Below, one piece after another: positions 4,289-36,330 of a DNA stretch of 36,736 bases; the stretch's first letter is position 1, and every line of letters starts with the position of its first letter. Location of the stretch: positions 1-36,736 of the forward strand of contig JADHXS010000007.1 of the NCBI GenBank assembly GCA_016782835.1, in the 5' to 3' direction. This DNA comes from Phycisphaerae bacterium. Lineage in GTDB: Bacteria; Planctomycetota; Phycisphaerae; Sedimentisphaerales; Anaerohalosphaeraceae. The notes beneath the pieces were generated by a model, which worked only from the letters and a program-made list of their open reading frames with translations, ran no database searches and was not told where the DNA came from. The position numbers and the translations under genes were made by a program.

Positions 4289-4328
4289 ATATTCTAACAA
4301 CGTTTTAGAAAACCTGTCAGTCTCAGTT

Positions 4329-4357
4329 GTCATTCCCGCGAAGGCAGGAATCCAGCG
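4329..4357. repeat. Dispersed repeat GTCATTCCCGCGAA..GGGAATCCAGCG (dRS3-like), copy 1
   Basis: GTCATTCCCGCGAAGGCAGGAATCCAGCG in the convergent gap between the GH15 and larA-like genes. Confidence 0.7.
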
Positions 4358-6831: not shown

Positions 6832-6863
6832 TGCTTACTCCGTTTTTTTGAAATCAAAGCAAT

Positions 6864-6892
6864 GTCATTCCCGCGAAAGCGGGAATCCAGCG
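6864..6892. repeat. Dispersed repeat GTCATTCCCGCGAAAGCGGGAATCCAGCG, copy 2
   Basis: Near-identical to copy 1, perfect hairpin, between mraY and murF. Confidence 0.75.
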
Positions 6893-11922: not shown

Positions 11923-11995
11923 ATAGCAATCTGCAGAGTATTCCTCCGGTGAAGTAAAAAAAACAAGACTTTAGCCAAGTGTAAAATACGACTTG

Positions 11996-12049
11996 TCATC
12001 CCCGCGAAGGAATGTCACCCCCGCGAAGGCGGGGGCGCCGAATCCAGCG
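11996..12049. repeat. Tandem/partial copies of the GTCATTCCCGCGAA..AATCCAGCG repeat
   Basis: GTCATCCCCGCGAAGGAAT GTCACCCCCGCGAAGGCGGGGGCGCCGAATCCAGCG. Confidence 0.65.
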
Positions 12050-17149: not shown

Positions 17150-17228
17150 GGCCCAAAAGGCCAAAATAATTTAGCCCAGCCCAACGGGCTGGGGAAACAA
17201 ACCACAATATACCTCGCCCTGAAAGGGC
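17150..17228 (-). repeat. Three-hairpin repeat, copy 1 (CTA-stem family)
   Basis: On + strand: GGCCcaaaaGGCC - TTTAG - CCCAGCCCaacGGGCTGGG - spacer - GCCCTGAAAGGGC. Same C / NTAG / B / A order as the other copies. Confidence 0.65.
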
Positions 17229-18469: not shown

Positions 18470-18511
18470 GCCTGAAAGGCATATTTAACTTAGCCCAGCC
18501 CAGCGCATGTG
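18470..18511 (-). repeat. Partial/degraded three-hairpin repeat, copy 3a
   Basis: GCCTGAAAGGC - ATATTTAACTTAG - CCCAGCCCAGCGC; resembles copy 1, central stem degraded. Confidence 0.5.
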
Positions 18512-18781: not shown

Positions 18782-21172
18782 ATGTCAAAAGATAAAACAA
18801 AAAGCCTGTTTGGAACAGAATTGGATGACACATCGAATGTGTCAGGGCTGATTGTTCGGGTTGCGCTGGATACCGGCGCCGATACTCTGTTCGATTACGT
18901 TTTGCCCCAATTTCTGGGAACCGTCCAGCCAGGACAACGGGTGCAGGTGCCGTTCGGACGGGCAAATAAGCTTCAACAGGCGTTCGTTGTAAAAATTATT
19001 GATGACCCCGATGAAATCGTAAAATGCCGACGGTTTAAGCTCAAACCCGTTAAAGCAATCCTTGACGAGGCGCCATTGCTGGATGCCGAATTAATACAAC
19101 TGGCCCAATGGATTAGCCAGTATTATGTCTGCCCCCTGGGACAGGTTTTCAGCGCAATGGTGCCCGCGGCGGTTAAAAAAGACGTCGGTGTCAAAAAGCA
19201 AAGCATCGTTTATCTGACAAATCGTGGAACGGGCATCCTGCCCGTGGAACATGGCCAGGATGGCCATGCCACCTTAATCAGAAGCAAAAAGCAAAAGGCG
19301 ATTGTCGATATTTTGCAAGAAGCCAATGCGGTTGATATCGACAGCGGGCTTGAAAAGCAGGTTTTGCTCGAGTCGGCCGACTGCACCGAAAGCCCGCTCA
19401 AACAGCTTATACGCAAACAAATTGCCAAAATCGGCAAAAAACAGATTCTGTACGCCCTGCCTGTCGTACCGGAAGGATTAAGTTTCGAAACAAAAAAAGT
19501 CATCCTGAACCAGGACCAGCAAAAAGCCCTGGATTTTGTTACGCATGAAATCACAGACAACCGCTTTGGTGTATCCCTGCTGCACGGTGTGACCGACAGC
19601 GGCAAGACGGAAGTGTATATTCGCGCCATCGAAGCGGCCATCGCGGCGGGCAGGCGGGCGATTATTCTGCTGCCCGAGATTGCCCTGACGGCCCAGACCG
19701 TCCAGCGATTCAGCAGCCGGTTTGAAAACGTCGCGATTCTGCACTCACAGCTTTCCGGCCCGCAGCGCAACGCACAATGGCAAAGCATCAAAAGCAATCA
19801 AGCCGACGTCGTCATCGGGGCACGGTCGGCCATCTTTGCCCCGGTGAGTAACCTGGGGCTGATTGTCATCGACGAAGAACACGAAGGCAGCTACAAGCAA
19901 GACACCGTGCCGCGCTATCATGGGCGGGATGTCGCCGTCAAGCGGGCGCAACTGGCAAACGCGCACTGCATCCTCGGCTCGGCGACGCCGTCGTTGGAAA
20001 CGCTGCACAACTGCACTACGAAAAAACATTACACTCTACTTCAACTGCCGAAACGTGTGAATGATTTGCCGATGCCGGAAATGAAGCTGGTGGATATGAC
20101 CTGCGCATTTGCGGATACGGAACATAAAGGCGTTCATCTTATTAGTCCGCCGCTTCGAGCACATCTTAGCAATATCCTGGAGCGGAAAGAGCAGGCGATT
20201 TTATTGCTAAACCGCCGGGGGTATAGTAATTTTGTCTATTGCCCGTCGTGTCGGCACAGCCTGACCTGTCGAAATTGTGATGTAACGCTGACCTTTCACA
20301 AAAAGCCGCAATTGGAAAATCGCAAAGAAACCATTCTCGGTCGGCACATGGTCGGCGGGTATGCGATTTGTCATTATTGCCTGTCGAAGACGCTGGTGCC
20401 GAAACAATGCCCGATTTGCAGCAAAAATATGACGATGGTTGGATTAGGTTCGCAGCGGCTGGAGGAGGAGCTGGCTAAAAAACTGCCCGCCGCCCGCGTC
20501 CGGCGGATTGACAGCGACGCGATGGCGGGGCAGGATTATTACGATGTTTTAAGGGATTTCGCGGAGCAGAAAATCGATATTCTGGCCGGAACGCAGATGC
20601 TGGCAAAGGGGCTTCATTTTCCGAATGTGACACTGGTGGGGATTATCAGTGCCGATACGGCGTTGTTTTTGCCGGATTTCCGCTCGAACGAACGGACGTT
20701 TCAACTTATCAGCCAAGTGGCCGGACGTGCCGGACGCAGCGAAAGGGGCGGAACCGTTTATGTCCAGACCTTTTTCCCCGAACAACCGACCATCAAATAC
20801 GCCCTGGAGTACAACTTTAAAGGCTTTTTAGAAAATGAGTTATCGCATCGAGAGGCCTGCGGTTTACCACCATTCGGGCGGATGGCGATTGTCGCGATGC
20901 GGGATATGAAATTTGACCGGCTTTCGGCGGCCGCCGAGAAAATGCGCCAGCGTCTGGATGAAATTATCACCACTGAACGGCTGAAAATCACGCTTCGCGG
21001 GCCCATCGAGCCGGCCATCAGCCGAATTCAGCGGCAGCATCGCGTTCAATTCATTCTACAGGGAAAATCGGTGGTTGACCTGCAAAGACTCTTTGGGCGT
21101 TTTCGCGTTATGGCGCCGCTTCGCCCCGCCGTCCAGACACAAGTCGATATTGACCCGATTGGTGTTTTATAG
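18782..21172 (+). CDS. priA: Primosomal protein N' (replication restart helicase PriA)
   Basis: LLHGVTDSGKTEVYIRAIEAA, VIDEEHEGSYKQDTVPRYHGRDVA, LGSATPSLET, zinc-binding Cys pairs (CPSCRHSLTCRNCDVTLTFH, CHYC...CPICS), QVAGRAGRSERGG. Start at 18782 preferred; ORF begins at 18650. Confidence 0.95.
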   Translation: MSKDKTKSLFGTELDDTSNVSGLIVRVALDTGADTLFDYVLPQFLGTVQPGQRVQVPFGRANKLQQAFVVKIIDDPDEIVKCRRFKLKPVKAILDEAPLLDAELIQLAQWISQYYVCPLGQVFSAMVPAAVKKDVGVKKQSIVYLTNRGTGILPVEHGQDGHATLIRSKKQKAIVDILQEANAVDIDSGLEKQVLLESADCTESPLKQLIRKQIAKIGKKQILYALPVVPEGLSFETKKVILNQDQQKALDFVTHEITDNRFGVSLLHGVTDSGKTEVYIRAIEAAIAAGRRAIILLPEIALTAQTVQRFSSRFENVAILHSQLSGPQRNAQWQSIKSNQADVVIGARSAIFAPVSNLGLIVIDEEHEGSYKQDTVPRYHGRDVAVKRAQLANAHCILGSATPSLETLHNCTTKKHYTLLQLPKRVNDLPMPEMKLVDMTCAFADTEHKGVHLISPPLRAHLSNILERKEQAILLLNRRGYSNFVYCPSCRHSLTCRNCDVTLTFHKKPQLENRKETILGRHMVGGYAICHYCLSKTLVPKQCPICSKNMTMVGLGSQRLEEELAKKLPAARVRRIDSDAMAGQDYYDVLRDFAEQKIDILAGTQMLAKGLHFPNVTLVGIISADTALFLPDFRSNERTFQLISQVAGRAGRSERGGTVYVQTFFPEQPTIKYALEYNFKGFLENELSHREACGLPPFGRMAIVAMRDMKFDRLSAAAEKMRQRLDEIITTERLKITLRGPIEPAISRIQRQHRVQFILQGKSVVDLQRLFGRFRVMAPLRPAVQTQVDIDPIGVL
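19224..19272 (+). repeat. Double-palindrome repeat inserted in frame within priA
   Basis: GTGGA ACGGGCAtccTGCCCGT GGAAC ATGGCCAggaTGGCCAT GCCAC: two 7-bp-stem hairpins, in frame with priA (RGTGILPVEHGQDGHAT). Confidence 0.85.
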
Positions 21173-34259: not shown

Positions 34260-34526
34260 TCCCTCCGTATTACGGGTGAACATGCGTGTAAGGTGCGAAA
34301 AATCGCATTGTAGATATGGTTTTCCAGTACTAAGGCAATAGGCAGTAGGCAGTTATAAAAATTTGAAATTTTTGGGAATAGCAAGATAGTACATGCAGAA
34401 TTTGTGCTATGTGGCTTTTGAAAATCCAAATAGTCCTATTCTGCAGTTTTGAATTTTTAGTTCTTAGTTTTGAGTTGTGAAAGTCCACCGGGTGGTTGGG
34501 TTGATTAAACAGGTTCAGGGAAATTC

Positions 34527-34627
34527 AACCCCGATGGGGTTCGGGGGGGGTGTGCGATCCTATTCCACGGGTTCCGGCCTTCGGCCTGCACCCGCGGCTA
34601 TTCTTATTAAAATCCCTACGGGATTTT
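34527..34627 (+). repeat. Three-hairpin repeat, copy 4 (CTA-stem family)
   Basis: AACCCCgatGGGGTT - spacer - CCACGGGT..GGCCttcGGCC..ACCCGCGG - CTATTCTTATT - AAAATCCCtacGGGATTTT. Confidence 0.8.
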
Positions 34628-35554: not shown

Positions 35555-36001
35555 ATGGCAACCTATACACAGGTTCTTTACCACCTTGTTTACGGGACGA
35601 AAAACCATCGAGGCACGCTGGACCTTGAGCAACATGATGAAGTGTGCCGCTATATTGTCGGAATTCTGAGAAACAAGAACTGTTTCGTTTATAAAGTCGG
35701 GGGATACATTGACCATTTGCATATATTAACGTCTTTACATTCTTCGCTGGCTCTGGCAAACGTCATCAAAGATATTAAACTGGCAACGTCTGACTGGATT
35801 AAAAAGGAAAAGAAACTTTCCATTTTTGACGGCTGGCAGGATGGTTACGGGGCGTTTACCTGCTCATGGAAGGATAAAGAACGAGTTATCAACTATATTG
35901 CCAATCAGCATGAGCATCACCGGCATAAAACGTTTCGTGAAGAATATATTGAAATGTTGAAAAGGAGCGGTGTTGAATTTGATGAGAAATATCTGTGTTG
36001 A
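35555..36001 (+). CDS. IS200/IS605-type Y1 (HUH) transposase, RAYT-like
   Basis: Y1_Tnp features: YHLVYGTKNH, HUH motif DHLHIL, GAFTCSWKDKERVINYIANQHEHHRHKTFREEY with probable catalytic Tyr. No tnpB nearby. Confidence 0.9.
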   Translation: MATYTQVLYHLVYGTKNHRGTLDLEQHDEVCRYIVGILRNKNCFVYKVGGYIDHLHILTSLHSSLALANVIKDIKLATSDWIKKEKKLSIFDGWQDGYGAFTCSWKDKERVINYIANQHEHHRHKTFREEYIEMLKRSGVEFDEKYLC

Positions 36002-36007
36002 TTATTC

Positions 36008-36100
36008 AACCCCTTTGGGGTTGGGGGTGTTTGTTGGATGTTTTCCCCGGGTTGCGCTGGCGCTTACCCGGGGCTATTGGTATTTAACCCCGTTGGGGTT
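36008..36100 (+). repeat. Three-hairpin repeat, copy 6 (CTA-stem family)
   Basis: AACCCCtttGGGGTT - spacer - CCCCGGGT...ACCCGGGG - CTATTGGTATTT - AACCCCgttGGGGTT. Confidence 0.9.
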
Positions 36101-36180
36101 GATGGGGATGTTGTGGGATGTTTTCCCCGGGTTGCGCTGGCGCTTACCCGGGGCTATTGTTATTTAAGCCCTTCGGGCTT
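36086..36180 (+). repeat. Three-hairpin repeat, copy 7, sharing a hairpin with copy 6
   Basis: A ~50-nt core (GGATGTTTTCCCCGGGTTGCGCTGGCGCTTACCCGGGGCTATTGNTATTTAA) recurs 80 nt after copy 6 with one mismatch; ends AAGCCCttcGGGCTT. Confidence 0.9.
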
Positions 36181-36330
36181 TAGGGGGTCTTTTACATATT
36201 CACCGGAACAACAAAAAGTGGTGATTTTATTCTTTTTTGTTTGGCGTTGACGGGGGGGAGGAAATTGGATATTTTAAATTGTAGATCGTATATTGGTGAA
36301 TGACCATTTTGAAAGGCAAGCAAGGCAGAT

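Follow-up and report, generated by a model that had tools for sequence, protein, structure and literature searches.

The priA gene of the window (the whole 36,736-nucleotide stretch that was analyzed, from a Phycisphaerae bacterium draft genome) carries within its reading frame a REPIN, a pair of GTGG-tagged REPs of the GTAG superfamily, which entered the gene in this lineage. The element was very probably inserted in trans by a RAYT of the lineage and is most likely tolerated as a neutral addition to PriA; in same-genus genomes a RAYT likewise sits in frame, within the valine--tRNA ligase gene valS. By itself, the priA element adds one further member to the intragenic REPs already described. 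Such REPs are known from replication and repair genes among others, head-to-head dimers are on record (Di Nocera et al. 2013, PMC3733652), and variants with a GTGG tag occur in Opitutus terrae, the species richest in intragenic GTAG repeats (PMC3733652). The coordinates of the features are given in Table 1.

Table 1. Features of the priA insertion and hairpin repeats elsewhere in the window
Feature	Position	Strand	Description or basis
priA, host gene of the insertion	18782..21172	+	796 aa; translation, Pfam domains, PDB match 4nl4 (1.2e-110)
Left-hand remnant of the ancestral 3'BD-WH loop	19217..19223	+	7 nt; orthologue alignment
REPIN, head-to-head dimer of GTGG-tagged REPs	19224..19272	.	sequence GTGGAACGGGCATCCTGCCCGTGGAACATGGCCAGGATGGCCATGCCAC; read in frame within RGTGILPVEHGQDGHAT
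REP unit 1	19224..19246	+	tag GTGG, stem ACGGGCA/TGCCCGT, loop TCC
Linker joining the two REP units	19247..19249	.	3 nt; sequence
REP unit 2	19250..19272	-	tag GTGG (CCAC on the + strand), stem ATGGCCA/TGGCCAT
Right-hand remnant of the ancestral 3'BD-WH loop	19273..19282	+	10 nt; orthologue alignment
Hairpin repeats near the 35555-36001 transposase	34523-34558, 36004-36039, 36082-36117, 36162-36197		

A REPIN in the reading frame of priA

Both halves of the inserted segment are oppositely oriented copies of one 23-nt unit, GTGGCAYGGNCNTCNWGNCCRTG, the first departing from the family pattern at a single base (A instead of C at unit position 5) and the second matching it throughout. The initial annotation had described a double palindrome lying in the frame of an otherwise normal PriA and encoding about residues 148 to 164, and this description held up well. 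Two perfect hairpins with 7-bp stems and 3-nt loops were found in 0 of 20,000 composition-preserving shuffles, and translation of the open reading frame places RGTGILPVEHGQDGHAT in frame at exactly those residues, in a protein that is normal outside the insert and shows the Pfam domains PriA_3primeBD, DEAD, Helicase_C, and PriA_C. The unit pattern matched once in the window against 0.00 matches expected, the second half of the element being listed by the whole-genome scan rather than by this window search. The unpaired GTGG at the foot of each short stem-loop is a documented variant of the GTAG-type tag, and the units are dispersed, multicopy, and joined as inverted dimers, as in REPs and REPINs. 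All six frames are open in the priA copy and only 3 to 5 in other copies; a GTAG tag in place of GTGG would close two. As proof of selection, six-frame openness is weak, with shuffles reaching all six frames in 6.8% of cases.

The same annotation had put the insert near the helicase core, which needs correcting: it lies after the 3'BD (residues 26 to 128) and before the winged-helix region begins, in a loop that aligns with EQGQVVDLNGLKRS of K. pneumoniae PriA, and the helicase core begins only at about residue 239. Its expectation of a lineage-specific insertion was borne out, as the insert occurs in 0 of 27 aligned PriA orthologues, 4 of them from the same genus. Between the flanking YL and SKKQK, the 3'BD-WH loop measures 22 aa in the window's PriA versus 12 aa in the genus, a gain of 10 aa. 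The 66 nt of this loop consist of the 49-nt element and 17 nt of leftover loop; some 19 nt that the loop had ancestrally have been lost or can no longer be recognized, and the junction is in frame but not clean.

A dispersed repeat family with in-frame copies

Element counts in the window's genome (a 2.25-Mb draft in 137 contigs, 91% complete) are based on pattern searches, which recovered 18 units at no more than one mismatch in about 11 places, mostly as head-to-head pairs; the reversed-pattern control gave 0 units in the same genome. Seven of the roughly 11 elements are unit pairs with the tags on the outside, spaced by 3 to 5 nt in six cases and by 20 nt in one. Across 59 genomes (the window's own among them) the unit is present in 18, with a patchy distribution, balanced strands, and almost empty controls, and the highest count in any one relative is 83 units.

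At least five of the elements lie in frame within recognizable genes of the window's genome, where the host names, priA excepted, are our reading of the sequences: priA (RGTGILPVEHGQDGHAT), a sensor histidine kinase (RSTGFQPVKNMGKMPMPH), a B12/radical-SAM-type protein (WHGHLARVVGNRFDHGLEDRAT, in a different reading frame and with a different peptide), an M56-type peptidase, and a prepilin peptidase. The kinase insert is lacking in both same-genus orthologues compared and the radical-SAM insert in the one same-genus orthologue compared, other radical-SAM matches being likewise shorter. These differing frames, peptides, and hosts point to tolerance rather than to a common role for the peptide. 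The original proposal of a mobile, multicopy palindromic repeat tolerated within an essential gene fits a genome in which other copies exist and a PriA family in which the segment is not conserved. Its suggestion of domestication is not supported: the other hosts are unrelated, one copy is read in another frame, and the same-genus orthologues compared lack the kinase and radical-SAM inserts. A repeat-derived peptide that PriA now retains as an interaction or regulatory loop is, overall, unlikely: priA is an essential-type gene, intact, with an insert that keeps the frame, and published intragenic REPs concentrate in replication and repair genes (PMC3733652), but no orthologue retains the insert, further in-frame copies sit in unrelated genes, one of them read differently, and neither hairpin stem has yet lost its perfect pairing, which fits a young element.

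About half of the genome's copies lie between genes, dispersed and with no gene context that they share. This distribution shows nothing specific to priA and weighs against a role for the insert as nucleic acid, in which a pair of mRNA hairpins or an ssDNA hairpin would tune expression or attract a RAYT and the peptide would be incidental; even with the perfect stems, and with REPs that function as RNA elements elsewhere (PMC3733652), we consider such a role quite improbable. In addition, a prepilin-peptidase-type gene of this genome (locus L224, 2091-2249, contig C88) contains a REP unit that is duplicated together with a 136-bp tandem repeat at the gene's end.

With the GTAG-superfamily REPs (PMC3733652) the priA family shares tagged short stem-loops, head-to-head dimers, dispersal, and some intragenic copies, and it differs in its distinct stem (GTGGCAYGGNCNTCNWGNCCRTG) and in belonging to another phylum. 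REPINs as originally defined (Bertels and Rainey 2011, PMC3116915) similarly combine two inverted REPs into a unit with many dispersed copies and a link to RAYTs, although the linkers of the priA family are shorter, its copy number is low (about 11), and many of its copies are in frame. The resemblance to Rickettsia palindromic elements, drawn in the initial annotation, is a partial one. In both cases palindromic repeats are translated at permissive sites within genes for unrelated proteins; the organism, a planctomycete relative, is a different one, however, the sequence appears to differ as well, and the priA element is a head-to-head GTGG-REP dimer of the kind that RAYTs mobilize, with a candidate transposase, rather than an element of the Rickettsia type.

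RAYTs embedded in valS and other host genes

The window's genome has nine Y1_Tnp genes, which were rejected as mobilizers because no unit was found in their vicinity; the one located in the window (35555-36001) is of a short type with other repeats at its flanks. This genome (91% complete) has no RAYT of the subfamily to which the valS-embedded copies belong, and its valS is empty; the unit-rich relatives G028, G040, and G021 contain no close RAYT either. In two same-genus genomes, G005 and G009, a RAYT with REPINs of the priA family on either side was found within the frame of valS, which is open over 1,221 aa in G005 and over 670 aa, cut by the contig end, in G009. RAYTs flanked by the same repeat also occur in G044 and G058, but not in the window's own genome. 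The flanking REPINs of G005 are nearly identical and in frame, encoding GTAFQAVNATNTGRMSVP and GTAFQAVDTANTGRMPVP, and against NCBIfam the fusion scores 1,047 bits as valine--tRNA ligase and 76.7 bits (cut-off 80) for an internal REP_Tyr_transpos. A single valS was found in each of G005, G009, and G044 (drafts 82, 70, and 93% complete), which leaves the fused gene to act as the ValRS unless a second copy is unassembled. Judged by its sequence, the stop-free REPIN-RAYT-REPIN cassette within the only valS found is probably read through in translation and would form an internal domain of the synthetase. AlphaFold models of ValRS-RAYT and FabZ-RAYT, with a mean pLDDT of about 49, were uninformative. 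At the same valS site, G028 (83 REP units; locus L222) has an in-frame REP remnant, DHGQDAHAT, and no RAYT, which looks like either the trace of a RAYT since lost or an independent insertion of a REP.

The embedded proteins carry the motifs of RAYTs, with the HUH motif (NHxH) in 45 of 46 copies and the catalytic tyrosine in the class-2 motif Y..xNP in 46 of 46. The A1 RAYT profile matches the TnpA_REP structure 4er8 at 5.8e-10, and the NCBIfam model REP_Tyr_transpos scores above its cut-off in the purH and metH fusions and slightly below it in others. The HUH (NHVH) and Y..xNP motifs, the REP flanks, and the 4er8 match are all shared with known RAYT/TnpA_REP proteins (Nunvar 2010, PMC2817692; Corneloup 2021, PMC8266576; PDB 4er8). 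Known RAYTs are described as free-standing, whereas the embedded RAYT has no stop of its own and is in frame with its host on both sides. The survey of GTAG-superfamily REPs (PMC3733652) contains no report of a RAYT itself in frame in a gene, and among open-licence papers we found no published report of RAYT cassettes in frame in essential genes.

Between G005 and G009, the RAYT has a dN/dS of 0.105 (dS 0.74) compared with 0.05 to 0.06 for the ValRS parts; silent sites are mostly saturated in other pairs. The embedded RAYT is under purifying selection.

Fusions of this kind extend well beyond the genus. A search of 392 genomes of the phylum recovered 83 RAYTs of this subfamily, of which 30 lie in open frames of at least 350 aa, with both host halves recognized for about 20 of these; among other Y1_Tnp genes in 11 genomes, the control, 0 of 60 lie in a frame longer than 346 aa. 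Not every long open frame is a host gene, and those of G170 and G228, which resemble chance frames, were excluded. Among the best 80 relatives of the RAYT from 84,980 species genomes, 42 are in frame with a recognized host gene and thus not free-standing with their own stop, although a few (L231, for example) end at a contig edge on one side; other members of the subfamily are free-standing. Their hosts include valS (11), ispG (6), fabZ (5), DNA methyltransferases (5), a TPR protein (4), alaS (3), metH (3), leuS (2), and dinG, tsaC, and a GH38 enzyme (1 each). In G125 and G105 the fused alaS is single-copy. The REP-encoded peptides flanking the RAYT vary by lineage. Carriers belong to phyla that include Planctomycetota, Verrucomicrobiota, Armatimonadota, and Hydrogenedentota, and one carrier, Roseibacillus persicicus KCTC 12988, with its RAYT in metH, is in culture. 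The same behavior in so many genomes, a cultured one included, bears on whether the priA insert could be an assembly or binning artifact of a metagenome-assembled genome. That genome is indeed a 137-contig draft, but the element lies deep within a 36.7-kb contig and is bordered on either side by normal PriA, and the genome has several independent in-frame copies, which makes an artifact highly improbable.

Several individual hosts deserve mention. The RAYT in ispG occupies two sites, at about residue 490 or at 340-390 (L262 versus L287, L288, L293, L306, and L307), so that this gene has been hit at least twice. In G058, a type ISP restriction-modification gene (L138, 22-4164 on the - strand) forms a single frame of 1,381 aa with an in-frame RAYT and five REP pairs, at least four of them in frame. 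Restriction- or defense-type DNA methyltransferases recur as in-frame hosts in unrelated lineages (L173, L177-L180, L184, L234, L245, L247, L259, and L264). The alaS of G177 with its RAYT (L186, contig C30) is split into two overlapping frames of 692 and 638 aa by a frameshift or a sequencing error.

In phylogenies, the RAYTs sort by host gene, with 24 label changes against 44 in shuffles. Those of valS form one clade (98/92), the sole extra row being truncated by a contig end, those of the TPR protein form another, and 5 of the 6 from ispG group in one clade; fabZ and alaS RAYTs are mixed, which indicates that jumps from host to host occur. Occupied valS genes are dispersed among empty ones in the ValRS tree, where G005 and G009 group with a mostly empty genus, and the RAYT of these two is closest to that of more distant relatives. 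With the two trees in conflict and the occupied genes scattered, plain vertical descent of valS::RAYT was rejected; the distribution may reflect transfer into the same site, or old presence followed by many losses.

A mobile enzyme in frame in essential genes, at a shared site and patchily distributed among relatives, recalls inteins and homing endonucleases. Unlike inteins, the fusions show no Hint (protein-splicing) domain, Pfam finding host domains and Y1_Tnp only, and the sites are variable loops, which implies that the insert stays in the mature protein and has to be tolerated there by the host.

Origin of the priA insertion and other repeats of the window

In the mechanism that we favor, a RAYT (TnpA_REP, HUH/Y1) acting in trans at some time in the lineage would have moved or copied the REPIN into the priA loop. 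We infer that this mover was a RAYT of the window's own lineage and, by analogy with TnpA_REP, that the transfer probably took place as single-stranded DNA. The REPIN would be a nonautonomous element built of structures that a RAYT recognizes, and work on one RAYT showed that cleavage at CA is still possible with a GTGG tag, which directs cleavage to CC (PMC8266576). In-frame hits in permissive loops would be those that survive selection; with its frame kept and the loop permissive, PriA should still be functional, and the inserted peptide is most likely a neutral linker. Where the RAYT itself is embedded, the cell would produce it as an internal domain within the host enzyme, the open frames of the fusions predicting their translation.

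We put forward a broader model only tentatively. Here a widespread RAYT lineage would exist as translated, stop-free domains within essential enzymes (ValRS, AlaRS, LeuRS, FabZ, IspG, and PurH), maintained in active form by purifying selection and moving between alleles of one and the same gene in a homing-like manner, and in-frame REPINs such as that in priA would be its nonautonomous offspring, aided by a GTGG tag without the stop in GTAG. RAYTs are very long-lived, for reasons that to our knowledge are not settled. Should many of them lie in frame in essential genes, deletion would have to be exact or be lethal and expression would be guaranteed, offering a testable reason for persistence. 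Many annotated valine-, alanine-, and leucine-tRNA ligases, FabZ, IspG, and MetH proteins in Planctomycetota and Verrucomicrobiota would then include a transposase domain that has escaped notice, and peptides like GTGILPV..HGQDGHAT, short and in frame, would be transposon footprints, not functional insertions.

The window contains further repeats. A second, short Y1 transposase of IS200 type (35555-36001, + strand, 148 aa) is flanked by a different hairpin repeat family, ATTCAACCCC..GGGGTT and CCCCGGGTTGCGCTGGCGCTTACCCGGGG (Table 1), with which it probably forms another REP/RAYT-like pair. An intergenic repeat, TGTCATTCCCGCGAA..GCGGGAATCCAGCG, at 4328-4357, 6863-6892, and 11994-12042 represents a further dispersed palindromic family, and a 36-nt repeat, GCCCAAAAGGCC..TTTAGCCCAGCCCAACG, occurs at 17151-17186 and 18470-18505, in the gaps flanking the gene before priA.
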